Shown piece by piece: positions 17,101 through 33,033 of a stretch of DNA of 64,000 bases (its first letter is position 1; every line of letters starts with the position of its first letter). The position numbers and the translations under genes were made by a program. The stretch is taken from the NCBI RefSeq assembly GCF_002214185.1, contig NZ_CP022161.1, positions 5,587,486 to 5,651,485 on the forward strand, written 5' to 3'. The notes beneath the pieces are model-generated. The model ran no database searches. It worked only from the letters and a program-made list of their open reading frames with translations, and was not told the origin of the DNA. This DNA is from Streptomyces capitiformicae. Lineage in GTDB: Bacteria; Actinomycetota; Actinomycetes; Streptomycetales; Streptomycetaceae.

Positions 17101-17222
17101 CTGGTCTCCTTGCTCGCCTGGAAAACATGTGTGCGGGTCGAGGCTGTGGGCGCTACCATCGCCGCGATGATGACTCACTCCATTGGCAGAATGGGGGTTC
17201 CGTCCGCGCAAGGTGAGTGCTG

Positions 17223-18641: not shown

Positions 18642-18743
18642 CCCGGGGCTGTCCTCCCCACCCGTTCGCATCGCATCACGGCGGGGGCCCGCCCCCGCGC
18701 CCCTTCACGCACGCGTTCCTCACACACCCAAAGGTGATCAAAC

Positions 18744-20018
18744 ATGCCCACTTGCACTCCGTTCGCCCTGCCCAGCACCCTCTCCGCCCCGCCCACCGAC
18801 CAAGCCCACGCCTCCCAACTCGACGTCGCGGGCAACCTGTTGAGCCTGCTGCGTACGACCACCACCGAACCTCGCCCCGACACACAGTTGGAGGCGTTGA
18901 CCCTGGCCGTCGCCGCCGATCTGCCCGTACTGCTGTGGGGTGAGCCGGGGATCGGCAAGACCGCGGCGTTGACGCAGCTCGCCGCGGCGCTGGACCTTCC
19001 GCTGACCACCGTGATCGCGAGCGTGCACGAGCCGTCCGACTTCTCGGGACTGCCCATCGTGGGAGACGACCCGGCGGAGCAGGGGGTGCCCATGGCGCCG
19101 CCGGACTGGGCAGTGCGGCTGGTGCGGGCCGGGCGGGGGCTGCTGTTCCTGGACGAGTTGTCGACCGCGCCCCCCGCCGTGCAGGCCGCGCTGCTCCGGC
19201 TGGTGCTGGAGCGGAGGATCGGCGCGCTGCAACTGCCGCCCGGCGTCCGGATCGTGGCCGCCGCCAACCCGCGGTCCTCGGCCGCCGACGGCTGGGAGCT
19301 GAGCCCGCCGCTCGCCAACCGGTTCGTGCACCTTCAGTGGACCCACGACCACGAGGTCGTCGTACGCGGCCTCGGCGGGACCTGGCCCAGGGCCACCCTG
19401 CCGCGGCTCGCCCCGGAACGGCTCGCGGAAGCCGTCGACTTCGCCCGTCGCGCGGTGTGCGGGCTGCTCGCCGCCCGCCCCAAACTCGTGCACCAGCTGC
19501 CCAGCAGCGAAAGCCGCCGGGGCGGCCCGTGGCCGTCGCCGCGCAGCTGGGAGATGACTCTGCACCTGACCGCCTTCGCCACCGCCTCCGGGGTCTCCCG
19601 GGACGTACTCTCCCTGCTGGTCAGGGGCACCGTGGGAGACGGGCCCGGGCTGGAGTTGCTGGCGAGCCTGGACCGGTTGGACCTCCCGGATCCCGAGGAA
19701 CTGCTCGCCGACCCGGCGGGTGCCGTACTGCCCGAGCGGGGCGATCTGCGCCAGGCCGTGCTCGACGGGGTCGTGGCAGCGGTACGCAACCGCCCCGAGA
19801 AGTCACGCTGGGACGCCGCGTGGGCGCTCCTCGTCCACGCGGTGGAGACGGGCGCCCCGGACCTGGTGGTCGTCCCCGCGACCACCCTCGCCGCACTGCG
19901 CCGCGAGGACTGGGACGTCCCCGAGTCGATCGAGAAGCTCGCGGGAGTCGTCTCCCTGTCCCGGCGCGCGGACGAGGCGGCGGCCCGCGCCAAGACCGCG
20001 AGGAAGGCGGCGCGATGA
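18744..20018 (+). CDS. MoxR-family AAA+ ATPase
   Basis: Chaperone-like AAA+ ATPase of 424 residues that usually remodels or inserts metal into a VWA-protein partner. ATG 18744 follows AAAGGTGA. The Walker A is WGEPGIGKTAAL (about residues 67-78), Walker B LLFLDELSTAP, and sensor 1 VAAANPRSSAADGWE. The C-terminal lid is about 150 residues and ends in an Ala/Arg-rich tail. The stop overlaps the next ATG (ATGA), so the ATPase and VWA protein are translated together, as is usual for MoxR-VWA pairs. Confidence 0.92.
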   Translation: MPTCTPFALPSTLSAPPTDQAHASQLDVAGNLLSLLRTTTTEPRPDTQLEALTLAVAADLPVLLWGEPGIGKTAALTQLAAALDLPLTTVIASVHEPSDFSGLPIVGDDPAEQGVPMAPPDWAVRLVRAGRGLLFLDELSTAPPAVQAALLRLVLERRIGALQLPPGVRIVAAANPRSSAADGWELSPPLANRFVHLQWTHDHEVVVRGLGGTWPRATLPRLAPERLAEAVDFARRAVCGLLAARPKLVHQLPSSESRRGGPWPSPRSWEMTLHLTAFATASGVSRDVLSLLVRGTVGDGPGLELLASLDRLDLPDPEELLADPAGAVLPERGDLRQAVLDGVVAAVRNRPEKSRWDAAWALLVHAVETGAPDLVVVPATTLAALRREDWDVPESIEKLAGVVSLSRRADEAAARAKTARKAAR

Positions 20019-21565
20019 GCACGGACGGGACGAGCGAGGACGGGACGAGCATGCCCGGGACGGGGGCCACACGGACGGGGGTGCCCGGGAGCGGCGCGTC
20101 GGGGACGGAAGCGGCCGAGACAACGGCGACCGGGCCGAGTACCGCCGAGCCCAGGGCGACCGAGACGAGAACGCGCGGGACGAGGACAGCCGATGGCCCG
20201 ACAACCGGGACGAGGACAGCCGATGGCACGACAACCGGGACCAGGATGCCCGGGGCGACGGCGGCCGCCACAAGCACGACCTCAACGAGGACGGCCGGGA
20301 CAATGCCGACCGCTTCCCGGGCAGCCGGCACGACAACACCGCGCCCCCTGGACCGCGACAAGCTCTTCACCGCCCGGCTGCAGGCCGCCCGGGCCCGGCC
20401 CTACCTGGCGTCGGCGCTGTTCGCCCTGCACCCCGTCGAGTCCCGGCAGGTGCTGACGATGGCCGTGGACCGGTACTGGCGGTGTTATGTCTCACCGGTC
20501 TTCGTGGACCGGACGCCGGTGGAGGAGTTGGCGGGCGTATGGGTGCACGAGGTGTCGCATCTGCTCCGCGACCATCACGGGCGCGGCGACCGGGTCGCCC
20601 GGGAGCGCGGGCTGACCGGCGCCGGGGAACGGCTGCGGATGAACCTCGCCGCGGACTGCGAGATCAACGACGACGTGTACGGCGACGGGTTGGTGAAGCC
20701 GAAGGGCGTGGTCGAACCGGGGACCTTCCGGCTGCCCGAGGGGCAGCTCATGGAGGAGTATCTGGACGACATCCGGCTCGGGCCGCGTATGCAGGCACTG
20801 GCCTGGCTGGACTGCGGCAGCGGCGCCGACGGGCTGGACCGGGAGTGGGACCTCGGCCCGGACGGCGCGCACGGCCTGAGCGAGCAGGAACGGGACGCGG
20901 TCCGGTTCCGGGTGGCGCAAGGCATCAAGGGCCGGCCGGGGAGCGCCCCGGAGGGCTGGCAGCGGTGGGCGGAGGAGGCGTTCCATCCGCCGCAGCCGTG
21001 GCGGGAGTTGCTGGGCGCGGCCGTCCGCTCGGCGGCGTCCGGCTCCGGCGCGGGCGAGGACTACACCTACGGGCGGCCGGCGCGGCGCTCGGCCGGGGTG
21101 CCCGGGGTCGTCCTGCCGAGCCTGCGGCGCAGGCCGCCCCGGGTCTCCGTGGTCATCGACACCTCGGGGTCGGTCAGTGACGCCGAACTGGGCAGCGCGC
21201 TCCTGGAGGTCGCCGCGATCTGCAGCGCCCTGGGCGGCCGGCGCGACCTGGTCACCGTGGTGCCGTGCGACGCGGACGCCCGGATCACCCATTCGCTGTG
21301 CCGGGCCGAAGGCATCCCCCTGGTGGGTGGCGGTGGCACGGATCTGCGTACGGGTTTCCGCGCGGCGCTGCGCGCCCAGTCCCCGCCCGACGTCATCGTC
21401 GTCCTCACCGACGGACAGACCCCCTGGCCCGCCACCCGACCGCCGTGCCGGACCGTGGTCGGCCTGTTCTCACGGCCGTATTCGGACGGCTCATGGGACG
21501 AGAACGATCCCGACTACGTACCGGACCGCCCGCCCGACTGGGCCCGCGTGGTCGAGATCGGATAG
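20015..21565 (+). CDS. VWA-like metallopeptidase (DUF2201 type) with a Thr/Gly-rich N-terminal extension
   Basis: Partner of the MoxR ATPase, 516 residues. Residues 1-105 are low-complexity Thr/Gly/Arg, including a duplicated 30-bp unit, and unlike the rest. The zincin-like domain that follows has HEVSHLLRDHH (an HExxH motif) and NLAADCEIND. The C-terminal VWA-like domain has the MIDAS-type DTSGSVS and later VLTDGQTPWP. The domain set fits a metal-dependent peptidase-like fold fused to a VWA domain, described in MoxR-linked systems. Whether it cleaves peptides is unknown. The start overlaps the MoxR stop. Confidence 0.88.
   Translation: MSTDGTSEDGTSMPGTGATRTGVPGSGASGTEAAETTATGPSTAEPRATETRTRGTRTADGPTTGTRTADGTTTGTRMPGATAAATSTTSTRTAGTMPTASRAAGTTTPRPLDRDKLFTARLQAARARPYLASALFALHPVESRQVLTMAVDRYWRCYVSPVFVDRTPVEELAGVWVHEVSHLLRDHHGRGDRVARERGLTGAGERLRMNLAADCEINDDVYGDGLVKPKGVVEPGTFRLPEGQLMEEYLDDIRLGPRMQALAWLDCGSGADGLDREWDLGPDGAHGLSEQERDAVRFRVAQGIKGRPGSAPEGWQRWAEEAFHPPQPWRELLGAAVRSAASGSGAGEDYTYGRPARRSAGVPGVVLPSLRRRPPRVSVVIDTSGSVSDAELGSALLEVAAICSALGGRRDLVTVVPCDADARITHSLCRAEGIPLVGGGGTDLRTGFRAALRAQSPPDVIVVLTDGQTPWPATRPPCRTVVGLFSRPYSDGSWDENDPDYVPDRPPDWARVVEIG
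20179..20238. repeat. 30-bp direct repeat, 2 copies, in the VWA gene
   Basis: Two adjacent 30-bp units (20179-20208 and 20209-20238) differ at one base and encode TRTADG(P/T)TTG. They form part of the Thr/Gly-rich N-terminal extension. Confidence 0.85.
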
Positions 21566-21597: not shown

Positions 21598-21635
21598 AAG
21601 AGCGCCGAAGTTCACCCCTCCAACCCACATGACAA

Positions 21636-21650
21636 TGAAAATGATTATCG
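21636..21650. promoter_or_regulatory. Fur-family (probably Zur) operator before the metallophore operon
   Basis: TGAAAATGATTATCG differs at two positions from the 15-bp Streptomyces Zur-box pattern as I remember it (TGAAAATGATTTTCA). The overlapping 19 bases 21631-21649 match the E. coli Fur box at 16 positions. It is an AT-rich island in very GC-rich DNA, 91 bp before the GTG of the first gene. Zinc-bound Zur repression, relieved on zinc limitation, is the simplest reading. Fur-type iron control is the alternative. The box is seen; the regulator is inferred. Confidence 0.7.
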
Positions 21651-21740
21651 ATAAGGTTCCCACGTCAAGCCGGTCGCCTCCTCGTCGAGGCGTCGTCGGG
21701 CTGCCCTGACGCTGAACCGCACCGCACGAAAAGGGGAGCT

Positions 21741-22997
21741 GTGGCTCATCTGTTGGTGGTCGAGAGCTGGGTCGGATCGATGAGCAGGCTGCTGCCACGC
21801 GCGATCCGGGAGGGCGGGCACGAGTTCACCTTCCTCACCCGCGACCTGCACCACTACCTGCGCGCGGCCCCGGAGGGGACGGCACATCCGCTGCTCGGCG
21901 CGCGGAACGTGGTCACCGCGGACACCAACGACACCGAAACCCTCCTTCCGGAAGTCACCCGGCTGCACTCGGTCCTCGGGTTCGACGGAGTGATCTCCTC
22001 CTGCGACTACTACCTGCCGACGGTGGCGCGCATCGCCGGTCACCTCGGGCTGCCCGGCCCGGGTCCGGAGGCGGTCCACGACGCCTGCCGCAAGGACGCC
22101 ACCCGCCGCGTGCTCGCCGACGCGGGGGTGCCCGGACCCCGTTTCGCCCTCCATGAGGAGTGGGCCGACCTCGCCCGGGCCGCGCGGGAGATCGGCTATC
22201 CGCTGGTCGTGAAGCCCGTCGACCTGTGCGCGGGCATGTACGTACGGCGGGTGGAGGACGAAGCCGAACTCACGGCTGCGGTACGGGCGTTGGCAGACTT
22301 TCCGCTCAACGCGCGCGGTCAGCGGCGGGTGCCCGCCGTGCTGCTCGAGGAGTTGCTGACCGGTCCCGAGGTGAGTGTCGAAACCGTGTCGCACGCGGGT
22401 GCGGTCCAGGTCGTGGGCGTGACCGACAAGAGCATCGGCGGGGCACCGGCGTTCATCGAGACCGGGCACATGTTCCCCGCCGCTCTGCCGGCGGCCGACA
22501 CGGAGGCCGCCGAGCAGACCGCACTCGGCGCGCTGAAGGCGCTCGGGCTGACCGACGGGGTCGTGGCGCACACCGAGATCAAACTGACCCCGTCCGGGCC
22601 GAGGGTCGTCGAGGTCAACCCCCGGCCCGCCGGGAACCGCATCACCGAGTTGGTCCGCCACGTCACCGGCATCGACCTGGCCGCGGCCGCCGTGGAGGTG
22701 GCCCTCGGCCGCGAACCCGACCTGCGGCGCCGGGAGACCGGACTGCGCAGCGCCGCCGTCGGCTTCCTCATACCGGAGACGTCGGGCACGCTCGAAGCGC
22801 TGGACGGTGGGCAACTCACCGCCGCACCGGGTGTGTTGGAGGCACAGCTCGCCGAGCCGGGGCGACAGGTCAAGGCGGCGGGCAGCAACAACGAGTACCT
22901 CGGGCATGTCATGGTCGGAGACCCGGAGGGGCTGGGGGCGCGCGAGCGGGTCGAGGCACTGCTGGGCGAGTTGCGCTCCGGGCTGGTGATCCGGTGA
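21741..22997 (+). CDS. ATP-grasp ligase (carboxylate-amine ligase), metallophore cluster
   Basis: ATP-dependent ligase that activates a carboxylate as an acyl-phosphate and couples it to an amine, probably joining two amino acids, 418 residues. GTG 21741 has AAGGGGAG 3 bases upstream. The N-terminal pre-ATP-grasp domain (1-110) is followed by the ATP-grasp core. A lysine in GYPLVVKPVD contacts ATP, VPAVLLEELLTGPEVSVETV forms the adenine region, and VVEVNPRPAGNRI holds the Mg-binding Glu and Asn. It is the first gene behind the Zur-like box and its stop overlaps the next start (GTGA). Relatives include L-amino-acid ligases of small-peptide pathways. The substrate pair is unknown. Confidence 0.9.
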   Translation: MAHLLVVESWVGSMSRLLPRAIREGGHEFTFLTRDLHHYLRAAPEGTAHPLLGARNVVTADTNDTETLLPEVTRLHSVLGFDGVISSCDYYLPTVARIAGHLGLPGPGPEAVHDACRKDATRRVLADAGVPGPRFALHEEWADLARAAREIGYPLVVKPVDLCAGMYVRRVEDEAELTAAVRALADFPLNARGQRRVPAVLLEELLTGPEVSVETVSHAGAVQVVGVTDKSIGGAPAFIETGHMFPAALPAADTEAAEQTALGALKALGLTDGVVAHTEIKLTPSGPRVVEVNPRPAGNRITELVRHVTGIDLAAAAVEVALGREPDLRRRETGLRSAAVGFLIPETSGTLEALDGGQLTAAPGVLEAQLAEPGRQVKAAGSNNEYLGHVMVGDPEGLGARERVEALLGELRSGLVIR

Positions 22998-23845
22998 CCG
23001 CCGCCACGTCGGTGGCGGGCGCGGCCACGTACGAGGAACTGGTGGAGCGGGTCCGGGCCGGTGAGTTGGGGCCGGATCCGCGGACGCTGCGGATCGCGGT
23101 GGCGTTCGCGACGCGGCAGGCGGTACGGCACGACGGGCGGGGCACCGGGTACCGCAACGAGGTGCTGAGCCTCCGGCTCGCCGGGGCCGTCGGCTCGTGC
23201 GCGGTCGAGCCCGGCGCCCTGCCCGACGCGGCGATCGACGACTGTGTGGGCGCCGATGTGGCCCGGCTGCTGGACCATCCGCTGGTGCCGGTGCGGGTGG
23301 CCGCGCTCGACGCCTACCTGGCGCATGTCACCCCGCACACACCGGATCACGGGGCGCGCCCGTTCGCGTTGTCCGCCGGGACCTCGCTGGAGAAGTCCCG
23401 GGCACGGGCGGGGGCCGTCGTCGAGTTGCTCGATCTGCCGCCGGGCGCCACGGTGCTCGTGGTCGGCGTCGTCAACTCCCTTCTGGAGGCCCTGCGTTCG
23501 CGGAATCTCGGCTATGTGCCGTGCGATCTCAAGGGCGGGTTCACCGAGTGGGGCGAGGAGGTCGTCACCGACGCGTTCGACGCGGCCGACCGCTGTGACG
23601 CGTTGCTCGTCTCCGGTATGACGCTGGGCAACGACACATTCGAGCCGTTGCGGCGGCACGCGCTGGCGCACGGCAAGCAGCTGGTGATGTTCGCGCAGAC
23701 GGGCAGCGCCGTACTGCCCCGGTTCCTCGGGCACGGGGTGAGTGCGGTGTGCGCGGAGCCGTATCCCTTCTTCTGGCTGGACGCAGGGCCGAGCATCCTG
23801 CACCGATACCGCCTGGCGTGTGCGGGTCCGGGAGGCGGCCGATGA
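22994..23845 (+). CDS. DUF364 (putative heavy-metal chelation) Rossmann-like protein
   Basis: 283 residues from GTG 22994, overlapping the ligase stop. The N-terminal part (to about 120) resembles DUF4213 and the C-terminal part is a Rossmann-like DUF364 domain. Visible pieces are GATVLVVGVVNSLLEALR, DLKGGFTEWGEEV, the typical VSGMTLGNDTFEPLRRHA, FAQTGSAV and SAVCAEPYPFFW. Pfam names these domains putative heavy-metal chelation, but no activity is established. In this operon it could bind the metal-ligand complex, catalyse a chelator-forming step, or release metal. Domain assignment is from motif memory. Confidence 0.82.
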   Translation: MTAATSVAGAATYEELVERVRAGELGPDPRTLRIAVAFATRQAVRHDGRGTGYRNEVLSLRLAGAVGSCAVEPGALPDAAIDDCVGADVARLLDHPLVPVRVAALDAYLAHVTPHTPDHGARPFALSAGTSLEKSRARAGAVVELLDLPPGATVLVVGVVNSLLEALRSRNLGYVPCDLKGGFTEWGEEVVTDAFDAADRCDALLVSGMTLGNDTFEPLRRHALAHGKQLVMFAQTGSAVLPRFLGHGVSAVCAEPYPFFWLDAGPSILHRYRLACAGPGGGR

Positions 23846-24930
23846 CCTCGTCGACCGCTCTGCGTTCCGTCGCCCGCCCCGAGCTGCTGTCCCTCGTCGG
23901 GCGTACGCCGCTGGCGCGTATCACCGCCGATCTGCCGGGGCCACAGCCCGGCTTCTGGGCCAAGCTCGAAGGGCTGTCGGCGGGCGGGATGAAGGCACGG
24001 GCCGCCGTGTCCATGCTGATGGGCGCCCGTGAGCGCGGTGAACTGCGACCCGGCGCCCCGGTGGTGGAGTCGACCTCCGGCACGCTGGGTATCGGCCTGG
24101 CCTTCGCGGGGCAGGCGCTCGGCCACCCCGTCGTGCTGGTCGGTGACAGTGAACTGGAGCCGTCCATGCGGCAGTTGCTGCGCTCCCACGGCGTACGGCT
24201 GGAGCTGGTGGACCGCCCGGCGGCCCTCGGCGGCTGGCAGGCGGCGCGCCTCGCCCGGCTGCGGGAGCTGCTCGCGGTGCTGCCGGACGCGTACTGGCCC
24301 GACCAGTACAACAACCCGGACAACACCGCCGGTTACGCCTCGCTGGCCGCCGAGCTCGCCGTCCAGCTGGACCACTTGGACGTCCTGGTGTGCAGTGTCG
24401 GCACCGGCGGCCACAGCGCGGGCATCATCGGTCCGCTGCGACGGCACTGGCCGGCGCTGCGCCTGATCGGCGTCGACTCCACCGGCTCCACGATCTTCGG
24501 CCAGCCGGCCCGGCCGAGGCTGATGCGCGGTCTGGGCAGCAGCATTCATCCACGCAACGTCGCCTACGACGCCTTCGACGAGGTGCACTGGGTCGGCCCG
24601 GCGGAGGCCGTGGACAGCTGTCGGCGGCTCGCCCGGGGCAGCTTCGTCAGCGGCGGCTGGAGCACCGGGGCGGTCGCGCTGGTCGCCGCCTGGGCGGCCC
24701 GCGTCCATGCGGGTGCCGTCGTCGCCACCGTCTTCCCGGACGGCCCGCACCGCTACCTCGGCAGCGTCTACGACGACGACTTCGCCGCCGCGCACAGCCT
24801 CGACCCGGCCTCCGCCGCCACCCGCCCCGTCGAGATCCCCCACCCCGGCGCGGCCGAGGCCGCCGGCTGGGCCCGGTGCGGCAGGGTCACCGATCCGCTC
24901 AAGGTCCCCCCTTCGAAAGAGAGACTGTGA
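23842..24930 (+). CDS. PLP-dependent cysteine-synthase-like enzyme
   Basis: Fold-type II PLP enzyme, 362 residues, ATG 23842 overlapping the previous stop. The likely Schiff-base lysine is Lys51 in LSAGGMKARAA. It lies where cysteine synthases have GSVKDR, but the surrounding residues differ. Other family marks are VESTSGTLGIGLA (substrate loop), YNNPDN, the PLP-phosphate loop SVGTGGHSAG, and GGWSTGAVAL. Relatives make beta-substituted alanines: cysteine, or in siderophore and metallophore pathways 2,3-diaminopropionate precursors (SbnA). Here it probably supplies a nucleophile-substituted alanine to the ATP-grasp ligase. Its C-terminal 30 residues reach the next start (GTGA). Confidence 0.9.
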   Translation: MTSSTALRSVARPELLSLVGRTPLARITADLPGPQPGFWAKLEGLSAGGMKARAAVSMLMGARERGELRPGAPVVESTSGTLGIGLAFAGQALGHPVVLVGDSELEPSMRQLLRSHGVRLELVDRPAALGGWQAARLARLRELLAVLPDAYWPDQYNNPDNTAGYASLAAELAVQLDHLDVLVCSVGTGGHSAGIIGPLRRHWPALRLIGVDSTGSTIFGQPARPRLMRGLGSSIHPRNVAYDAFDEVHWVGPAEAVDSCRRLARGSFVSGGWSTGAVALVAAWAARVHAGAVVATVFPDGPHRYLGSVYDDDFAAAHSLDPASAATRPVEIPHPGAAEAAGWARCGRVTDPLKVPPSKERL

Positions 24931-25991
24931 AGGCCACCCGGCGCACCGTACGCCTCGACCTCGCCGAGCCGTTGCGCATCTCCCGCTCCACCATGTCCGC
25001 ACGCGACGCGGTGTGGCTGACCGTCGAACACGACGGGCTGCACGGCCATGGCGAGGCCGTCACCAGCGTGTACTACGGACTCGACGCCGCCACCCTGGAA
25101 CGGCTCTTCGCCGCCGTCGCCGCGGAGCTCGTACGCTTCCCCGATCCCGAGAGCGCGCTGAAAGCCCTGCGGGACGGCAAGCTGGCCGGCCAGGAGACTC
25201 CCGCGGCCGTCACCGCCGCCGTCGACTCCGCGCTCCTCGACCTCGTCGGCAAGCGGGCGGGCAACCCCGTCCACCGGCTCCTGGGCACGGCGGCCTCACC
25301 GGTGGCGGCCACCGCGCGGACCATCGGCATCACCTCGCCGACGCGTGCGGCGGCCGAGGCCCGCCGGCTCGCCGCGCGCGGCTTCGCGGTCGTCAAGATC
25401 AAGGCCGGGGCCGCCGACCCCGAGGAGGACGTGGAGCGCGTACGGGTCGTCCGCGACGCCGCGCCCCGGGCCCGGCTGCTCCTCGACCCCAACGGCGCCT
25501 GGACGGCGGGACAGATGGACACCCTGCTGCCGCGCTTCGCGGAACTCGGCGTCGAGGCCGTCGAACAACCCCTCGCACCCGGCGATCCGGAGGCACTGGC
25601 GGCCCTCGCCGAGCGCTCGCCGTTGCCCGTCATCGCCGACGAGGACGCGGTGGACCTGGAGGACGTACGCCGGCTCGCGGGGCGTGTGCACGGCGTCAAC
25701 GTCAAGCTCGCCAAGTGCGGCGGCGTCCACGCGGCCCTGCGGATCGCCGAGTTGATCGAAGGCAGTGGGACCGAGCTGATGCTCGGGTGCCTCACCGCCA
25801 GCAGCCTCGGGCTGGCACCCGCCGTGCATCTCGCCGACCGCGCCCGCTGGGTCGATCTCGACGGGCATCTGCTGCTGGCCCACGACCCATGGACCGGCAT
25901 CGGGGGCGGCGACGGGTTCGTACAGACAAGTGACCTGCCCGGTCTGGGAGTTCGGCCGAGGAAGGAGGCGCTCCGTGCAGACGTGGCATGA
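24927..25991 (+). CDS. Dipeptide epimerase (enolase superfamily)
   Basis: Epimerises the alpha-carbon of one residue in a dipeptide, 354 residues from GTG 24927. The enolase fold is complete. The acid/base lysines are Lys157/Lys159 (VVKIKAG) on one face and Lys260/Lys263 (VKLAK) on the other. Mg ligands are Asp187 (LLDPNGAW), Glu213 (VEQPL) and Asp238 (IADED). Near the C-terminus WVDLDGHLLL contains the DxD motif that dipeptide epimerases use to bind the substrate amino group, which separates this from muconate cycloisomerase or OSB synthase. Next to an ATP-grasp ligase it argues for a dipeptide intermediate. It overlaps the MFS gene by 17 bp. Confidence 0.88.
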   Translation: MKATRRTVRLDLAEPLRISRSTMSARDAVWLTVEHDGLHGHGEAVTSVYYGLDAATLERLFAAVAAELVRFPDPESALKALRDGKLAGQETPAAVTAAVDSALLDLVGKRAGNPVHRLLGTAASPVAATARTIGITSPTRAAAEARRLAARGFAVVKIKAGAADPEEDVERVRVVRDAAPRARLLLDPNGAWTAGQMDTLLPRFAELGVEAVEQPLAPGDPEALAALAERSPLPVIADEDAVDLEDVRRLAGRVHGVNVKLAKCGGVHAALRIAELIEGSGTELMLGCLTASSLGLAPAVHLADRARWVDLDGHLLLAHDPWTGIGGGDGFVQTSDLPGLGVRPRKEALRADVA

Positions 25992-27237
25992 GATACGCAG
26001 CTTCCCGTTCGCCGTCCGCCTCCTGCTGGTCAACCAACTCGGCGTCAACATCGGCTTCTACCTCCTCATCCCCTACCTCGCCACCCACCTGACCGAGAAC
26101 CTGGGCATGTCGGCGGCGGTCGTCGGCGTCGTCCTCGGCGTCCGGAACCTCAGCCAGCAGGGCCTGTTCATCATCGGCGGGTCCGCCTCCGACCGGCTCG
26201 GGGCGCGCGGCGTCATCATCGCCGGGTGCGCGCTGCGGACCGTGGGGTTCGGATTGTTCGCTCTGGGCGACGGGCTGGCGGTGCTGCTGGCCGCGTCCGT
26301 GCTGAGCGGGCTCGCGGGTGCACTGTTCAACCCGGCCGTGCGGGCGTATCTCGCGCAGGAGGCCGGGGAGCGCAAGGCGGAGGCGTTCGCGCTGTTCAAC
26401 GTGTTCGCCACGACCGGTGCCCTGATCGGTCCGCTGCTGGGCAGTGTGCTGCTGCTCGTGGACTTCCGTACGTCCGCGCTCACAGCCGCCGGGATCTTCG
26501 CGGTCCTCACCGTCGCGCAGGCCCTGGTGCTGCCCGCCCGGAAGGTGGAGCCGAGCGGCAGCGGTGTCCTCGGGGACTGGCGCGAGGTGCTCGGCAACCG
26601 GGCCTTCCTGGCCTTCGCCCTCGCCATGGTCGGCATGTTCACCCTGGAGAACCAGCTGTACCTGCTGCTGCCTGCCGGGGCCCGCGAGGCCACCGGCTGG
26701 GACGGCGCCGCCGGTCTGGTCTTCCTCGTCGGAACCCTCGCCAACCTGGCACTTCAGCTGCGGATCACCAAGTCGCTCAAGTCCCGTGGGAACAGGGCAC
26801 GTTGGGTCGCCGTCGGGCTCGCCGTCACGGGAGTGGCGTTCCTGCCGGCGGCCCTGGTGGGGGGCGCCGGGTCCGCCGGGTGGCTCGACGCCGTACCCGT
26901 CCTGCTCGGCGCGCTGCTGCTCTACCTGGGGCTCATGGTCGCCTCGCCGTTCGTCATGGAGCTGATCCCCCGCTTCGGCCGGCCGGAGCTGACCGGCACG
27001 TACTTCGGGATCTTCTACGTCGTCTCCGGCATCGCCGCGGCCGTCGGGAACACCGTCGTCGGGTGGGCCATGGACGCCGGGGAGCGCGGCGGCCACGCCT
27101 GGCTGCCGTGGGCGTGCTGCGCCCTGTTCGGCCTGGCCTCAGCGGGCGGGGTGGCCCTGCTGCACCGGCTCGGCGCGCTGCCCGCGGATCCGGCTCCGGT
27201 CGCGCCCGCTCCCGCCGGTGAGAGGAGCAGCGCATGA
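25975..27237 (+). CDS. MFS transporter, probable metallophore exporter
   Basis: 420 residues with about 12 hydrophobic helices, from GTG 25975 (GAAGGAGG 6 bases upstream). The loop 2-3 motif is GGSASDRLGARGV, and the N-terminal NQLGVNIGFYLLIPYLATHL and GPLLGSVLLL fit the DHA1/multidrug class. In metallophore systems such as staphylopine an MFS protein (CntE) exports the ligand before metal capture. The position between biosynthetic and import genes supports the same role here. Stop and next start overlap (ATGA). Confidence 0.9.
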   Translation: MQTWHEIRSFPFAVRLLLVNQLGVNIGFYLLIPYLATHLTENLGMSAAVVGVVLGVRNLSQQGLFIIGGSASDRLGARGVIIAGCALRTVGFGLFALGDGLAVLLAASVLSGLAGALFNPAVRAYLAQEAGERKAEAFALFNVFATTGALIGPLLGSVLLLVDFRTSALTAAGIFAVLTVAQALVLPARKVEPSGSGVLGDWREVLGNRAFLAFALAMVGMFTLENQLYLLLPAGAREATGWDGAAGLVFLVGTLANLALQLRITKSLKSRGNRARWVAVGLAVTGVAFLPAALVGGAGSAGWLDAVPVLLGALLLYLGLMVASPFVMELIPRFGRPELTGTYFGIFYVVSGIAAAVGNTVVGWAMDAGERGGHAWLPWACCALFGLASAGGVALLHRLGALPADPAPVAPAPAGERSSA

Positions 27238-28025
27238 CGACCGGCAACCTCCTCACCGACAACCCCGAGCTGTACGAGGCCCGCTTCCCTGACCCCGACC
27301 GGCTCGCCGGACGCTGGGCCGAGGACTGTCTGCGCCGCCACGGGGCCGGGCCGCGGGTGCTGGACATGGGGTGCGGCACCGGCCGCGACGCCGCCCATCT
27401 GCACGGCGCCGGCCGTACGGTGACGGGCGCCGACCTGTCCGAGGCGATGCTGGCCCACGCCCGGGCCCGGCACCCCGGACCGGCGTACGTCCGGGCCGAC
27501 CTGCACGGCTTCGACCTGGGCCGGGCCGCCTTCGACGCGGTCGTCTGCCTGGACAGCTCCCTGCTGTACTGCCACACCGACGACCAGCTCGACGGCTTCC
27601 TCGCCTCCTGCCACCACGCGCTCGCCCCCGGCGGGCTGCTGGTCGCGGAGATGCGCAACGGCGCCTACTTCCTGGGCCGCACCGACCTGCTCGACACCCC
27701 GACCGTCAACGCCTTCACCTGGCAGGGCACCGCCTACCGGTCCACCACCACCCTGACCGTCGACCGCACCGCCCAACTCCTGCGCCGTACCCGCGTCTGG
27801 ACGTCGGACGACGGATTACCGGCGAGCGAACAACGGTCCGCCTGGCGGCTGTTGTTCCCGCTGGAGCTGCGCCACGTCCTCGCCGTGCACGGCTTCGAGG
27901 TCCTGGAGCTGCACGACGGTCCGGGCCCGCGTACCGAACCGCCCTGGCAGGAGGGCGAGTTGCCCGGCCGGGTGACCGATGCCGACCGACTGCACCTCGT
28001 CGCGCGCCTGCGCACCACCCTCTGA
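27234..28025 (+). CDS. Class I SAM-dependent methyltransferase, with a TTA codon
   Basis: 263 residues, ATG 27234 overlapping the MFS stop. The methyltransferase Rossmann fold is shown by motif I VLDMGCGTGRDAAHL (residues about 42-56), an acidic residue at the end of strand 2 (VTGADLSEAML), and FDAVVCLDSSLLYC at strand 4. It would transfer a methyl to N or O of the metallophore. One TTA codon (27816-27818, in GLPASEQ) makes the operon partly dependent on the bldA leucyl-tRNA, so production is likely delayed to late growth. The substrate is unknown. Confidence 0.88.
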   Translation: MTTGNLLTDNPELYEARFPDPDRLAGRWAEDCLRRHGAGPRVLDMGCGTGRDAAHLHGAGRTVTGADLSEAMLAHARARHPGPAYVRADLHGFDLGRAAFDAVVCLDSSLLYCHTDDQLDGFLASCHHALAPGGLLVAEMRNGAYFLGRTDLLDTPTVNAFTWQGTAYRSTTTLTVDRTAQLLRRTRVWTSDDGLPASEQRSAWRLLFPLELRHVLAVHGFEVLELHDGPGPRTEPPWQEGELPGRVTDADRLHLVARLRTTL

Positions 28026-28050
28026 TCCATCACACCCCAAAGGGACTGTC

Positions 28051-29631
28051 ATGTACGACGAACGCTTTTCCGGGCTGCGCCGACGCGGCTTCCTCACCGC
28101 CACCACCGGGGCCGCCGCCCTCGCCCTCGTCGGCTGCGGCGGCACGGAGAACACGGCCGACCAGAGCGGCGGCGACGGCACGCCCCGGCGCGGCGGACGG
28201 CTGCGTGCCGCGTTCGCGGGCGGCGGTGCCAGCGAGACCCTCGACCCGCACCTGGCCAACCTGTTCGCCGATGTCGCCCGCGCCAAGGCGCTGTTCGACA
28301 AGCTGGCCGACTACGGCGCCGATCTGTCCGCGCAGCCGCGCCTCGCCACGAAGTGGGAGCCGAACAAGGCGCTGGACCGCTGGCAGGTCACCCTGCGGGA
28401 GGCCACCTTCCACGACGGCAAGCCGGTCACCGCGAAGGACGTGCTCTACAGCTATCGCCGGATCGCCGATCCCGAGAAGGCGTTCCGCGCCAAGGCGTCC
28501 CTGGAGCCCATCGACCTCGACGCGAGCCGGGCCACCGGTGAGCGGAGCATCGAGTTCGTGCTCAAGCGGCCGACAGCCGAATTCCCCAACGTGCTGGCCG
28601 CGTTCGGGGCGTACATCGTCCCGGAGAACGCCGGGGAGAACGCCTCCGACTTCGACCAGAAGCCGATCGGCTCCGGCCCCTTCCGTTTTGTGTCCTTCTC
28701 CCCCGGCCGCTCGGCGGTCTTCCGCCGCCACGACGCGTACTGGGAGGGCGCCCCGCACCTCGACGAGCTCGAATTCGTCGTCGCCAACGAGGAGTCGGCC
28801 CGCGTCAACGCGCTCCTCGGCGGCCAGGTCGAGTACGCCCACGAGCTGAATCCGACGACCGCGCGCGCTCATGAGGGCAAGGGGCAGATCGAGATCGTCC
28901 GGCTGCGGGGCAGTGCCATGCAGGCGTTCTGCATGAAGACTGATCGGGCGCCCTTCGACGACAAGCGGGTACGGGAGGCGTTCTTCCTCATCGCCGACCG
29001 CCAGGAACTCGTCGACGGCGCGCTCTCCGGGGCGGGCGTGGTCGGCAACGACCTGTTCGGCAAGGGCTACGAGTACTACGCCGCCGATCTCCCGCAGCGC
29101 GAGCAGGACCTCGACCGCGCCAAGGCCCTGCTGAAGCAGGCCGGTGCCGAGAAGCTGAAGGTCACGCTGGACACGTCGGCCGTCGCCGCCGGATTCACCG
29201 AGGCGGCCGGCATCTTCCGCGACCAGGCAGCGAAGGCCGGTGTCACGATCGACGTGAGGATGGGCAGCAAGGACTCGTACTGGGCCGACATCCTCGACGG
29301 CGGCACCCTGGCCTGCTACCGCTCCGGCGCCATGCCCATCGAGGCGCACATCTCGCAGCGCCTCCTCACGGACTCCACCACCAACGCCACCCACTGGAAG
29401 CACAAGGACTTCGACGCGCTGTACCAGCAGGCGCAGTCCACCCGGGACAAGACGGAGCGGGCCGCCGTCTACGAGCGCATGCAGCGCCGGCTGTACGCGG
29501 AGGGCGGCTTCCTGATCTGGGGGTTCGCCGACTGGATTCTCGGAACGGCCCGCAAGGTGAAGGGAGTCGAGACCAAGGCCCCCGCCAACACGCTCGACTG
29601 GGCGCGCTTCGACAAGGTGTGGCTCGCGTGA
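28051..29631 (+). CDS. ABC substrate-binding lipoprotein (SBP_bac_5: peptide/nickel type)
   Basis: Extracytoplasmic receptor of an Opp/Nik-type importer, 526 residues. ATG 28051 has AAGGGA upstream, 25 bp after the methyltransferase stop. The N-terminus has twin arginines (GLRRRGFLTA) and a lipobox ending in Cys29 (LALVGC), so it is a lipoprotein, possibly Tat-exported. The body has the family features LDPHLANLFADVARAK, KPVTAKDVLYSYRRI and GSGPFRF. This class imports peptides, nickel and opine-type metallophores (CntA). In context it should recognise the metal-loaded product of the upstream genes. Confidence 0.93.
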   Translation: MYDERFSGLRRRGFLTATTGAAALALVGCGGTENTADQSGGDGTPRRGGRLRAAFAGGGASETLDPHLANLFADVARAKALFDKLADYGADLSAQPRLATKWEPNKALDRWQVTLREATFHDGKPVTAKDVLYSYRRIADPEKAFRAKASLEPIDLDASRATGERSIEFVLKRPTAEFPNVLAAFGAYIVPENAGENASDFDQKPIGSGPFRFVSFSPGRSAVFRRHDAYWEGAPHLDELEFVVANEESARVNALLGGQVEYAHELNPTTARAHEGKGQIEIVRLRGSAMQAFCMKTDRAPFDDKRVREAFFLIADRQELVDGALSGAGVVGNDLFGKGYEYYAADLPQREQDLDRAKALLKQAGAEKLKVTLDTSAVAAGFTEAAGIFRDQAAKAGVTIDVRMGSKDSYWADILDGGTLACYRSGAMPIEAHISQRLLTDSTTNATHWKHKDFDALYQQAQSTRDKTERAAVYERMQRRLYAEGGFLIWGFADWILGTARKVKGVETKAPANTLDWARFDKVWLA

Positions 29632-30581
29632 GCGGTCTTCGCTCCTTCGTCGCCCGGCGGCTGATCCTCGGTGTCGCGCAGACCGTGGCCGTGGTGCTGC
29701 TCGTCTTCGCGCTCACCGAGGCGCTGCCGGGCGACGCCGCGGTTGCCCTCGCCGGGGACCAGCCCGACCCGGCGCGTATCGCCGCCATCCGCGAGGCGAT
29801 GCATCTGGACCGGCCGGTGCACGAGCGGCTGGCCGACTGGGCGACCGGGCTGCTGCACGGTGACTTCGGTACCTCCCTGGCCTCCGGCCGCCCGGTCGGC
29901 CAGTACATCGCCGACGGCTTCGGGCCGACCCTGCTGCTGGCGGCGCTCACCGTGGCGCTGCTCGTGCCGATCGGCTTCGGGCTCGGCGTGCTGGCCGCCC
30001 GGCACGAGGGCGGGTTCGTCGACCGCCTGGTCAGTTCCGTCACGCTGGCCGTGTACGCGGTTCCCGAGTTCGCCCTCGGAGTGCTGCTGGTGACCGTGTT
30101 CGCACTGAAACTGGGCTGGCTGCCGCCGACCGCCGTCGGCTACGGCACCGATCTGCTCGCCCATCCGGCCGCGCTGGTCCTGCCCGTCCTCGTCCTGCTG
30201 TCCCGGCCGGTCTGCTCCCTGGTCCGCCTCGTGCGCGCCGGCATGGTCGACGCCCTCGCCTCCCCGTACGTCGCCCACGCCCGCCGGTACGGCGTCGCGG
30301 ACGCCCGGGTCCGCTACCTGCACGCGCTCCCGGGCGCCGTCGCCCCCGCCGCCCAGCAACTCGCCCGCACCATCGACTGGTTGCTGTGCGGCGTCATCGT
30401 CGTGGAGGCCCTCTACGTGATCCCCGGACTCGGCACCGTCCTCCTCAACGCCGTCGCCGAACGCGACGTACCCGTCGTCCAGGGCCTCGCCGTGGTGTTC
30501 GGCGTCCTCACGGTCGTCCTCAACCTGGGCGCCGATGTGGTGGCCCGGCGCTTCGCGCCCCGGGCGGGGGTGGCGGCGTGA
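29628..30581 (+). CDS. ABC transporter permease 1 (DppB/NikB type)
   Basis: 317 residues from GTG 29628, overlapping the binding-protein stop (GTGA). About six membrane helices. The DppB/NikB pattern is clear: ARRLILGVAQTVAVVLLVF at the start, EALPGDAA in the first periplasmic loop and ARRYGVADARVRYLHALPG before the last helices. The EAA motif region contacts the fused ATPase. Forms the membrane channel with permease 2. Confidence 0.93.
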   Translation: MSGLRSFVARRLILGVAQTVAVVLLVFALTEALPGDAAVALAGDQPDPARIAAIREAMHLDRPVHERLADWATGLLHGDFGTSLASGRPVGQYIADGFGPTLLLAALTVALLVPIGFGLGVLAARHEGGFVDRLVSSVTLAVYAVPEFALGVLLVTVFALKLGWLPPTAVGYGTDLLAHPAALVLPVLVLLSRPVCSLVRLVRAGMVDALASPYVAHARRYGVADARVRYLHALPGAVAPAAQQLARTIDWLLCGVIVVEALYVIPGLGTVLLNAVAERDVPVVQGLAVVFGVLTVVLNLGADVVARRFAPRAGVAA

Positions 30582-31441
30582 CGACCGGCACGGTCACGGA
30601 GACCGGCACGGCCACCGCTGCCGGGCGACGGCTCACGGGCCGTTTCGCGCTCGGCGTCACGATCATCGCCGTACCCCTCGTCCTCGCCCTGCTGGGGCCG
30701 GTGTTCGCGGGTGAACCCGGCCCACGGACGACCTCCTTCACGCTCGGCGGGGGGCACTGGCTCGGCACGGACTTCGTGGGCCGGGACGTATGGCGGCAGG
30801 TACTGCACGGCGGTCGGCCTGTCGTGCTCACCGCGCTCGGCGCCGGTGCGCTGGCCTACCTCGTCGCACTGCCGGTCGGTCTGGCCGCCGCGCTGACGCA
30901 TCGGCGCCTGCTGGAGGAGTTGCTGATGCGGCCCCTCGACGTGCTGATCGCCGTACCGTCGCTGCTGCTGATCCTGCTGGTCGCCTCGGTGTTCTCCCCC
31001 GGTGCCGTCGGCCTCGCCCTCCTCGTGGCCCTGATCAATGTGCCGGACGCGGCACGCCTGGTGCGGGCCGCCGCCACGGAGGCCGCCGCCCGGCCGGTCG
31101 TGGAGGCGCTGCGGCTCCAGGGCGAGAGCTGGTGGCGTGTGGCCATCGGTTGCGTGGGCCGCGCCATCCTGCGCACCCTGGTCGCCGACGCCGGCACCCG
31201 GCTGACCGGTGTGCTGTACCTGGTCGCCACGGCCGCGTTCCTCGGCGTCGGGGTCGCGCCGGACGCCGCCGACTGGGCGGTGATGGTCGACCGCAACCGT
31301 ACGGGCCTGTTCGTGCAGCCGTGGGCCGTTGTCGTACCCGCGCTGCTGATCGTCGCCCTCACCACCGGCACCAACCTCCTCTTCGACGCCGCACTGGAGA
31401 AGCCCGGCGGGCGCCGGGGACGGAAGGAACGACGGGCGTGA
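30578..31441 (+). CDS. ABC transporter permease 2 (DppC/NikC type)
   Basis: 287 residues from GTG 30578, overlapping the permease 1 stop (GTGA). The N-terminus begins with a helix, followed by the DppC/NikC signature HWLGTDFVGRDVW. The coupling-loop region reads TEAAARPVVEALRLQGESW, and the C-terminal hydrophobic PWAVVVPALLIVALTTGTNL and a basic tail follow. The EAA-type region is a little degenerate, as in many NikC proteins. Stop overlaps the ATPase start (GTGA). Confidence 0.92.
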   Translation: MTTGTVTETGTATAAGRRLTGRFALGVTIIAVPLVLALLGPVFAGEPGPRTTSFTLGGGHWLGTDFVGRDVWRQVLHGGRPVVLTALGAGALAYLVALPVGLAAALTHRRLLEELLMRPLDVLIAVPSLLLILLVASVFSPGAVGLALLVALINVPDAARLVRAAATEAAARPVVEALRLQGESWWRVAIGCVGRAILRTLVADAGTRLTGVLYLVATAAFLGVGVAPDAADWAVMVDRNRTGLFVQPWAVVVPALLIVALTTGTNLLFDAALEKPGGRRGRKERRA

Positions 31442-33033
31442 CGCAGCAGAACGACAGCGCCGGCCGGGATGCCGTGGAAGCGGGACCCGTGGCCGAGATC
31501 GCGGACCTGCGGGTCGAGGTCGGTGGTCGGGCGATCGTCGACGGGGTGAGCCTGAGGGTGCTGCCCGGCAAGGTCACCGCGCTGGTGGGCGCCTCGGGCA
31601 GCGGCAAGACCACGACCGGGCTGGCCCTTCTGGGCGAGTATCCGCCCGGCGCCCACGTGACCGGCGATGTCCGCGTGGCATCCGAGGACCTGGTCGGCTA
31701 TGTGCCGCAGCACCCGGCGGCCGTCCTCAACCCCGCCCGCCGTGTCACCGCGCTCCTCACCGACATCGCCCGCACCCACGTGCGCCATCTGCCCCTCAGA
31801 CAGCGCCGGGCGGCGGCCCGCGCGAGCGTCCTGCAAGCTCTCACAGATGCCCAACTCCCTGACGCCGAGGGCCTGTTGCGCCGTTATCCGCACCAGATCT
31901 CCGGCGGACAACAGCAGCGTGTCGTCCTCGCCCAGGCTCTCCTGCTCGGTGCCCGCGTCATCGTCGCCGACGAGCCCACCACGGGCCAGGACGCCCTGAC
32001 CAAGAGCCGTATCGTCGACGAGTTGGCGGCGGTCGCGGCACGCGGCATCGCGGTCGTCCTGCTCAGCCATGATCTCGACGTGGTGCGGGCGCTCGCAGAC
32101 GAGGTCCACGTGATGCGGGAAGGCCGCGTCGTGGAGTCGGGTCCGGCACAAAGACTGTGGCTCGCCCCCCAGCATGAGTGGACCCTCCAACTCCTCGACG
32201 CCCGGCCGTCGTCCGCCGAAGCGGGCGACCGGCCCGACCCGGCGCCCACCGAGCCCGTACTGCGCGTACGCGACCTCACCGCCCGCCACCGCGACGGCGC
32301 ACGCGGCACCACCGTGGCCGTGCGCGCACCCGAACTCGCCCTGCACGCCGGGGAATGCCTGGCCGTCGTCGGCCGCTCGGGCAGCGGCAAGACCACCCTC
32401 GCCCGATGCCTCGCCGGGCTCCACCGCGACCACGAGGGCGAGGTCCTCCTCGACGGCGCTGCCCTGCCACGCAGCCTGCGCGACCGCAGCCGGGGGCAGT
32501 TGGCGGCCGTGCAGTACGTCTTCCAGGACGCACGCGCCTCCTTCGACGAGCACCGCCCGATCCTGCACCAGGTCGCCCGCACGGCGGTCCGGCTGCGCGG
32601 CGCCGACGACCGTGCGGCCGCGTCCGAGGCGCTGATCACGCTCAGGCGTCTCGGTCTCTCCGAGGAACTGGTACACCGGCACCCCGCGCAGCTCTCCGGC
32701 GGCGAACTCCAGCGCGCCGCCCTGGCCCGCGCCCTCCTCGCGCGGCCCCGGGTGCTCGTCTGTGACGAGATCACCTCCGGGCTCGACACGGTGACCCGCA
32801 GGGGCATCCTCGACGTCCTCCTGTCGTTGCTCCGCGACCGTGACGACCTGTCGCTGGTGCTGATCACCCACGACCTGGACACAGCGGCCGTCGCCCATCG
32901 CATCGCCGTCCTGGACGCCGGGGAACTCGTCGAACAGGGCCCTGCGCAAAGGATCCTGACGGCTCCCGAGCATCCGTTCACGGCATCGCTCATGGCGACG
33001 ACGGCACGACTGGGGGCGAGCGCGCGGTCCTGA
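31438..33033 (+). CDS. Fused double ABC ATPase (DppD-DppF / NikD-NikE type)
   Basis: 531 residues from GTG 31438, overlapping the permease 2 stop. Two complete nucleotide-binding domains. The first has Walker A GASGSGKTT, signature ISGGQQQRVVLAQ and Walker B VIVADEPTTGQD. The second has Walker A GRSGSGKTT, signature LSGGELQRAALARA and Walker B VLVCDEITSGLD. Both have the switch histidine (LLSHDLD, LITHDLD). Opp/Nik importers normally use two separate ATPases. The fusion keeps all motifs and completes the import machinery. No gene lies between it and the kinase gene (33152). Confidence 0.94.
   Translation: MTQQNDSAGRDAVEAGPVAEIADLRVEVGGRAIVDGVSLRVLPGKVTALVGASGSGKTTTGLALLGEYPPGAHVTGDVRVASEDLVGYVPQHPAAVLNPARRVTALLTDIARTHVRHLPLRQRRAAARASVLQALTDAQLPDAEGLLRRYPHQISGGQQQRVVLAQALLLGARVIVADEPTTGQDALTKSRIVDELAAVAARGIAVVLLSHDLDVVRALADEVHVMREGRVVESGPAQRLWLAPQHEWTLQLLDARPSSAEAGDRPDPAPTEPVLRVRDLTARHRDGARGTTVAVRAPELALHAGECLAVVGRSGSGKTTLARCLAGLHRDHEGEVLLDGAALPRSLRDRSRGQLAAVQYVFQDARASFDEHRPILHQVARTAVRLRGADDRAAASEALITLRRLGLSEELVHRHPAQLSGGELQRAALARALLARPRVLVCDEITSGLDTVTRRGILDVLLSLLRDRDDLSLVLITHDLDTAAVAHRIAVLDAGELVEQGPAQRILTAPEHPFTASLMATTARLGASARS

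Follow-up and report, generated by a model that had tools for sequence, protein, structure and literature searches.

A probable ten-gene zincophore operon behind a Zur-type box in Streptomyces

We think it probable that a conserved ten-gene operon, lying behind a Zur-type box in the 64-kb stretch of Streptomyces DNA analyzed here (the window), serves to produce, secrete, and take back a small molecule that binds zinc, that is, a zincophore. Judged by the enzymes encoded, its assembly route likely differs from those of the known zinc scavengers with which we compared it. No description of the operon was found in the literature searched, whose coverage did not extend to the EDDS and EDHA gene papers.

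Operon layout, control region, and spread

Ten co-directional plus-strand genes, g1 to g10, fill positions 21741-33033 of the window (Table 1), as an earlier note on this DNA had described for an operon behind a Fur/Zur-like box. The same note gave most junctions as 4-bp overlaps, which holds for 6 of 9 (g1/g2, g2/g3, g3/g4, g5/g6, g8/g9, and g9/g10), while g4/g5 and g7/g8 overlap by 17 and 13 bp and g6/g7 are separated by a 25-bp gap, all of these lengths depending on the start codons chosen in the analysis. The end of the operon was judged by eye only.

Table 1. Position, strand, and basis of assignment of the operon genes and their upstream box (window coordinates)
Feature	Position	Strand	Basis
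Zur-type box	conserved stretch about 21631-21657; core 21636-21650, TGAAAATGATTATCG	+	sequence, motif, upstream conservation
g1, ATP-grasp ligase, L-amino-acid ligase type	21741..22997	+	ATP-grasp_4, LAL_C2 (Pfam)
g2, DUF364 protein	22994..23845	+	Pfam DUF364 and structure match
g3, SbnA-like PLP enzyme	23842..24930	+	PALP (Pfam)
g4, enolase-superfamily epimerase, dipeptide-epimerase type	24927..25991	+	MR_MLE domains (Pfam)
g5, MFS transporter, inferred exporter	25975..27237	+	MFS_1 (Pfam)
g6, SAM-dependent methyltransferase family protein	27234..28025	+	Methyltransf_25 (Pfam)
g7, solute-binding protein, Opp/Nik type	28051..29631	+	SBP_bac_5; NikA-type models best, below cut-off
g8, Opp/Nik permease	29619..30581	+	BPD_transp_1
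g9, Opp/Nik permease	30578..31441	+	BPD_transp_1
g10, double ABC ATPase, Opp/Nik type	31438..33033	+	two ABC_tran stretches

The box core, 91-105 bp upstream of the GTG start of g1, fits 10 of the 11 specified positions of the Zur motif given for S. coelicolor, tGaNNatSatNNtCa (PMC5472717). It is the sole site of at least 12/14 in the window, and ten dinucleotide shuffles of the window yielded none at that level and a single 11/14 site in one shuffle. Searched with one mismatch allowed, the 10.99-Mb genome holds four matches to a box pattern designed with the window's box in view, including one at znuA, and none to a reversed control pattern; another of the sites adjoins a glycosidase, with no clear link to zinc. 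Because znuA carries the same pattern, the Fur/Zur-like box can be sharpened to a Zur-type box. Conservation extends beyond the core, over about 21631-21657.

The box is also kept upstream in relatives, where the earlier note had proposed to look for it, with the best site fitting 8-10 of 11 positions in all 79 testable loci and 11-13 of 14 in all 29 further genomes; at locus L002, its letters are identical to the window's core. In an alignment of 98 sequences it is better conserved than any other 15-bp stretch upstream of the operon, with a mean conservation of 0.96 versus 0.62 in the remaining upstream region. The Rhodococcus locus L162 has no site of at least 11 upstream of g1. A sigma-70-like promoter over the box had no match on the plus strand and one on the opposite strand. 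This promoter-region box, retained among relatives, places the operon in the predicted Zur regulon. Control by iron was considered and rejected: when scored against a DmdR1 consensus, DmdR1-like sites of at least 14/19 are absent from the window, versus two such positions at the likely EDHA locus discussed below.

The ten-gene order is kept across Streptomyces, Embleya, and Rhodococcus, and the box precedes the Streptomyces loci. All ten genes are present in 75 of the 80 closest loci, and the same order recurs on two Rhodococcus plasmids at 43-59% identity, and synteny in other actinomycetes, like the upstream box, passed the test set for it in the earlier note; S. angustmyceticus also carries the operon. 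One locus, L075, retains g1-g4 and lacks g5-g10, and in S. globosus the ligase is fused to the PLP enzyme. In a sample of 197 genomes from the order, 44 carry the operon-type DUF364 gene and 33 a second kind, described below. Among 396 genomes of the phylum there were DUF364 matches in 7, six belonging to the same genus and one being a weak 26% match. The Embleya and Rhodococcus loci, as well as a second-kind locus from Tsukamurella, come only from the plasmid collection (9 records).

Enzymes, transporters, and competing readings

With an ATP-grasp core and a LAL_C2 domain, g1 resembles L-amino-acid (dipeptide) ligases, and peptide-bond formation is its predicted reaction. Its nearest solved relative is BL00235, it is distantly related to BacD-type ligases, and its top NCBIfam model among the matches listed, the ATP-grasp half of a ligase-lyase fusion, falls below cut-off. 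The next protein, g2, scores 26.5 bits against Pfam DUF364 (PF04016; cut-off 23), and its model, which fits the DUF364 structures 3L5O and 3NPG, has the DUF364 fold. One structural study of DUF364 makes the case for its involvement in chelator synthesis (PMC2954201). The PLP enzyme g3, whose presence was known but whose type had been left unnamed, can be refined to SbnA-like, since SbnA is its best PDB and NCBIfam match, at 240 bits versus a cut-off of 349.95 for the SbnA equivalog TIGR03945. Among its 120 listed homologs, three bear the name S-sulfocysteine synthase and some the name CysK2.

The best structural matches of g4 include solved dipeptide epimerases, and it scores below the L-Ala-D/L-Glu epimerase cut-offs (151.6 versus 343 and 129.8 versus 500 bits; NCBIfam); among the matches listed, both g1 and g4 lie below every NCBIfam cut-off. 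The DLDG (DxD) and KxK motifs of g4, whose functional meaning we assume, and its metal ligands are largely conserved in 76 sequences and, together with the enolase-superfamily fold, mark it as a predicted epimerase of that superfamily. Murein recycling uses L-Ala-D/L-Glu-epimerase-type enzymes and Opp importers, and the similarity of g4 to such enzymes could fit an operon for the uptake and recycling of peptides, such as murein peptides, in which epimerase and ligase act in salvage beside the Opp importer. We consider this quite improbable, since four of the proteins (the ATP-using ligase, MFS protein, SbnA-like synthase, and methyltransferase) have a synthetic look, Pfam gives no peptidase family match for any of the ten, and the box is of Zur type. 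A slightly less probable reading still is that the operon makes a bacilysin-like dipeptide antimetabolite that enters competitors via peptide importers, its own importer serving for recapture. The distant kinship of g1 with BacD-type ligases and the MFS protein would agree with this, but metal uptake is the better fit for an operon that has its own dedicated importer and a Zur-type box.

For g7-g10, the closest importer models are those of nickel/cobalt and staphylopine systems; among the matches listed, the best NCBIfam models for g10 are NikD and CntF/CntD, below cut-off, and the N terminus of g7 reads, by eye, as a twin-arginine lipoprotein signal. Staphylopine-type compounds bind several metals, and with these importer likenesses the product might instead be a metallophore that serves mainly to acquire nickel, cobalt, or several divalent metals, Zur control then mirroring just one of its uses. 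We regard this as unlikely, though the least so of the alternatives, given that the box fits the Zur motif and recurs at znuA.

A second kind of DUF364 locus and a possible pathway

DUF364 genes are also paired with SbnA-like genes, near Zur-like sites, in other clusters, which the earlier note did not mention. The two genes adjoin in all 15 second-kind loci fetched, and a Zur-like site is found in 13 of these (not in L112 or L113); the loci hold 21 strand-wise sites of at least 12, versus 0 or 1 in ten shuffles. Accompanying the pair there are either a GHMP kinase and import of the Fec type, or PhyH and import of the Opp type. With somewhat less than even confidence, we suggest that DUF364 and an SbnA-like synthase may be the common core of an unnamed class of actinomycete zincophores with at least 2 kinds of cluster (ligase/epimerase/Opp, and GHMP kinase/Fec or PhyH/Opp), in which DUF364 would be a chelator-building enzyme in the place that nicotianamine synthase takes for staphylopine.

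If the operon does make a zincophore, zinc-loaded Zur would repress it and zinc shortage would open it. Being SbnA-like, g3 speaks for a unit of the aminopolycarboxylate type over a plain dipeptide. The enzyme would couple the amine of an amino acid to a serine donor at its beta-carbon, the donor probably being O-phosphoserine. The joined aminopolycarboxylate would be kept, not released, because the operon is without OCD and Lyase_1 release enzymes. At a guess, g2 may then act on it by further condensation or trimming, after which g1 could add an amino acid via a peptide bond, g4 invert a center, and g6 methylate. Export of the product would fall to g5, and the Opp/Nik importer g7-g10 would take the zinc complex back. 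If this is right, an uncharacterized zinc-acquisition pathway would be common in Streptomyces, and DUF364, whose structure was solved in 2010, would be placed in a pathway that allows its reaction to be assayed. Genome mining would then gain a rule (DUF364 and SbnA-like genes side by side, preceded by a Zur box) for finding metallophores made without NRPS, NIS, or opine genes, and chemists would likely have a source of zinc chelators that are natural and degradable.

Comparison with known systems

Coelibactin of S. coelicolor is described as Zur controlled (PMC6103462); it is NRPS-made, whereas the operon proteins have no NRPS domain. SbnA, of staphyloferrin B synthesis, is the nearest solved relative of g3, yet Pfam finds among the ten proteins no OCD (SbnB-like) or Orn/Arg-decarboxylase-type partner and no IucA/IucC-type (NIS) synthetase. 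Dhaf4260 (3L5O), a DUF364 protein, is 12% identical to g2. CysK2-type synthase and MFS pairs, as in the CysK2 gene pair of M. tuberculosis, occur in genome G000 and S. scabiei as paralogs of g3 (57%) and g5 (44-48%), but without the other eight genes and with no Zur-like site of at least 11/14 in L157 and L158.

EDDS of Amycolatopsis japonicum is reportedly under the control of zinc and Zur (PMC9252823; PMC6103462), and g3 provides the SbnA-like PLP enzyme characteristic of EDDS and EDHA systems; antiSMASH includes an aminopolycarboxylic-acid type (PMC10320115). In S. scabiei, the locus that is likely to be the one for EDHA (L159), assigned by gene content and the expected position of tags scab_5231-5311 (PMC8914351), shares with the operon an SbnA-like PLP enzyme (34% identity with g3) and an Opp importer (35-43% identity with g7-g10), but has nothing matching the DUF364 protein, ligase, or epimerase, and it has DmdR1-like, that is, iron-type, sites where the operon has a Zur-type box. 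The four proteins scanned there are of TauD, OCD, Orn/Arg-decarboxylase, and PALP type with no Lyase_1; the argininosuccinate-lyase-like step that the earlier note gave for EDDS synthesis was not confirmed. That the operon is itself the EDHA locus was rejected, since in S. scabiei the two lie at about 0.6 Mb and about 9.09 Mb, some 8.5 Mb apart, and their enzymes differ.

The staphylopine and pseudopaline (cnt) systems likewise combine synthesis genes and an exporter, and with staphylopine the Opp/Nik-type importer is shared as well. CntF, CntD, CntA, and CntC models match g10, g7, and g9 below cut-off (for g10, among the matches listed), and the occurrence of an Opp/Nik-type importer and an MFS transporter in one cluster supports the staphylopine-like metallophore logic that had been proposed. 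The proposed difference from staphylopine is also supported: unlike cnt, the operon has no CntL-, CntM-, or CntK-type enzyme, and neither Pfam nor NCBIfam (for g1 and g10, among the NCBIfam matches listed) showed a nicotianamine-synthase-like, opine-dehydrogenase, NRPS, or NIS domain in any of the ten proteins. In their place are the ligase, DUF364 protein, SbnA-like enzyme, enolase-superfamily epimerase, and methyltransferase. The best reading of these predicted functions is an operon that follows the logic of staphylopine and EDDS/EDHA with an enzyme set of its own.

Gene content and spread of the operon

The ten-gene operon described in the earlier note is borne out in the 10.99-Mb, single-contig genome of the window, where ten genes on one strand (g1 to g10) encode, in order, an ATP-grasp ligase, a DUF364 protein, a PLP enzyme, an enolase-superfamily epimerase, an MFS protein, a methyltransferase, a solute-binding protein, two permeases, and a double ABC ATPase, with 4-bp overlaps at 6 of the 9 gene junctions.

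Positions in the window of the operon, its box, and the gene set upstream
Feature	Position	Strand	Location	Basis
Unknown protein, MoxR-like AAA ATPase, DUF2201 protein	17217-21565		upstream of operon	
Zur-type box core TGAAAATGATTATCG	21636-21650		upstream of operon	sequence
Ten-gene operon	21741-33033	+		domain and family matches

Conservation of the gene set in other actinomycetes, on which the earlier note had made its proposal depend, was found: all ten genes are present in 75 of the 80 best-matching loci kept from 286 related stretches, 79 of the 80 being named Streptomyces and the other Actinobacteria bacterium. The incomplete loci L002, L005, L041, and L046 are short contigs, and in L075 (Streptomyces sp. 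NRRL WC-3605, L075:8676-20804) g1 to g4 and the box are kept and g5 to g10 were not found, although the fetched stretch continues. DUF364 occurs in 75 of 197 genomes of the order, in 44 at 68% identity or more, a count that rests on the DUF364 gene with the full operon verified in only part of them, and in 33 at 39-45%, two genomes having both. The complete set, in unchanged order, is also plasmid-borne in S. angustmyceticus, one Embleya, and two Rhodococcus. The Rhodococcus operons are 43-59% identical to the window operon, and since Rhodococcus belongs to another order, the ten-gene unit is old or mobile.

Several neighboring arrangements were seen as well. The DUF2201 protein upstream of the operon is a putative metallopeptidase with a VWA-like domain, and the three-gene set to which it belongs adjoins the operon in 11 of the 80 loci and also a second kind of DUF364 cluster, treated below, in L121. 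Of the 69 loci whose upstream sequence extends 2.5 kb or more, 35 have a divergent alpha/beta-hydrolase-like gene ahead of the operon (e.g., L023:7054-8640); this gene may share the Zur-type box. Streptomyces plasmid pFRL2 holds an enzyme 57.8% identical to g4 (L166:9001-10032) in a different gene set, accompanied by sulfotransferase and oxidoreductase genes.

The Zur-type box

The S. coelicolor Zur motif is given as tGaNNatSatNNtCa in PMC5472717. A pattern drawn jointly from this motif and the window box, with one mismatch allowed, matches four places in the whole genome, and a reversed control pattern matches none. One site lies 140 bp before a ZnuA-domain match, at the 5' end of the ORF of the strongest ZnuA gene, behind which stand an ABC ATPase gene and a permease gene; another adjoins a glycosidase gene, and another is flanked by an Opp-type importer and a gene lacking a Pfam match. 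Apart from the operon box, no site in the window reaches 12 of 14 positions, nor does any in ten shuffles.

The importer site (L135:5894-9036, near 1034438 of G000:C1 in the same genome) is strongly Zur-like, and the gene opposite the importer is divergent. Given such a site beside a second importer of the Opp type (SBP_bac_5), this genome may encode an additional system for taking up zinc chelates.

Within 350 bp before g1 in 79 loci (L047 was left out, its g1 start being off the contig), the best site scores 10 of 11 specified positions in 47 loci, 9 in 31, and 8 in 1, and all best sites lie at -61 to -174 bar that of L056 at -255. In a further 29 genomes of the order, in which species overlap with the first set is possible and from which L153 with only 86 bp upstream was left out, best sites reach 11-13 of 14 positions. 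Across 98 aligned upstream regions, the box core ranks first among 15-bp windows, with a mean majority-base frequency of 0.96 versus 0.62 for the remaining upstream region. The box is weaker in Rhodococcus, with a best site of 11/14 in L163 and none of at least 11/14 upstream of g1 in L162. Conservation of the box in relatives, the other expectation of the earlier note, was found in the 79 loci and the 29 genomes.

A second kind of DUF364 cluster

Outside the ten-gene operon, we sampled 15 loci from 14 genomes, out of 34 matches in the 39-45% identity class, and an SbnA-like gene is near DUF364 in all 15. Among these second-kind loci, matches to g7-g9 occur in L119 only. There an Opp importer is accompanied by an MFS protein, a PhyH oxygenase, a Fur-family regulator gene, and a methyltransferase-like protein that hits no Pfam family. 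GHMP kinases are encoded in L118 and L111, in L118 together with a FecB-type binding protein; importer types are given for the scanned loci only. By annotation, plasmids of Streptomyces SGAir0924 and Tsukamurella bring together genes for iron-type ABC proteins, MFS, DUF364, GHMP kinase, and PLP enzyme.

Zur-like sites of at least 11/14 are present in 13 of the 15 loci (none in L112 and L113), and called gene starts lie within 500 bp of the site in 11 of these 13; L120 and L122 have the site, but no called gene start within that distance. A strand-wise count over 275,477 bp gives 21 sites of at least 12/14, versus at most one per shuffle in ten shuffles. Our contrast locus, the likely EDHA locus of S. 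scabiei (L159), has no Zur-like site of at least 12/14 and two DmdR1-like positions. In L125, a Zur-like site (L125:19283) lies 274 bp before a ribosomal S14-like gene, about 9 kb from the second-kind DUF364 gene; S14 paralogs such as rpsN2 are Zur targets, according to PMC6103462.

Possible chemistry and known systems

In S. globosus, a PLP enzyme and an ATP-grasp amino-acid ligase are fused in one protein (L167:4876-7149), adjoined by GHMP kinase and Lyase_1 genes within an NRPS region. In Kitasatospora the ligase match falls within the coding region of an annotated PLP enzyme, next to kinase and lyase genes, and Azospirillum has, by annotation, adjacent kinase, cysteine-synthase-like, ATP-grasp, and argininosuccinate-lyase genes. 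We infer a route in which serine would be phosphorylated and the PLP enzyme would then couple it to an amine, after which, in these clusters, the lyase would release a diaminopropionate unit. O-phosphoserine is the putative donor in the window operon. A domain scan found neither such a lyase nor an OCD enzyme among the ten operon proteins; the product of the coupling is therefore likely retained as a chelator unit and then lengthened by the ligase. Since 3 of the 120 g3 homologs listed bear the name S-sulfocysteine synthase, a sulfur ligand in the product is possible.

A paralogous pair (L157:7222-11032, L158:8283-11041) combines an SbnA/CysK2-like enzyme, with 57% identity to g3, and an MFS gene, with 44-48% identity to g5. 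It is accompanied by a DUF1015 gene in the genome of the window, and both loci lack Zur-like sites scoring at least 11.

The earlier note had likened the operon to staphylopine systems in logic while predicting a different chemistry, and this comparison stands: the working logic is alike, but the operon is not a member, with no CntL- or CntM-type enzyme among its ten proteins. With EDHA it has a single enzyme type in common, along with the type of importer, whereas the remaining genes differ. On sequence grounds, the operon is a predicted NRPS-free zincophore system, a further form of that kind.
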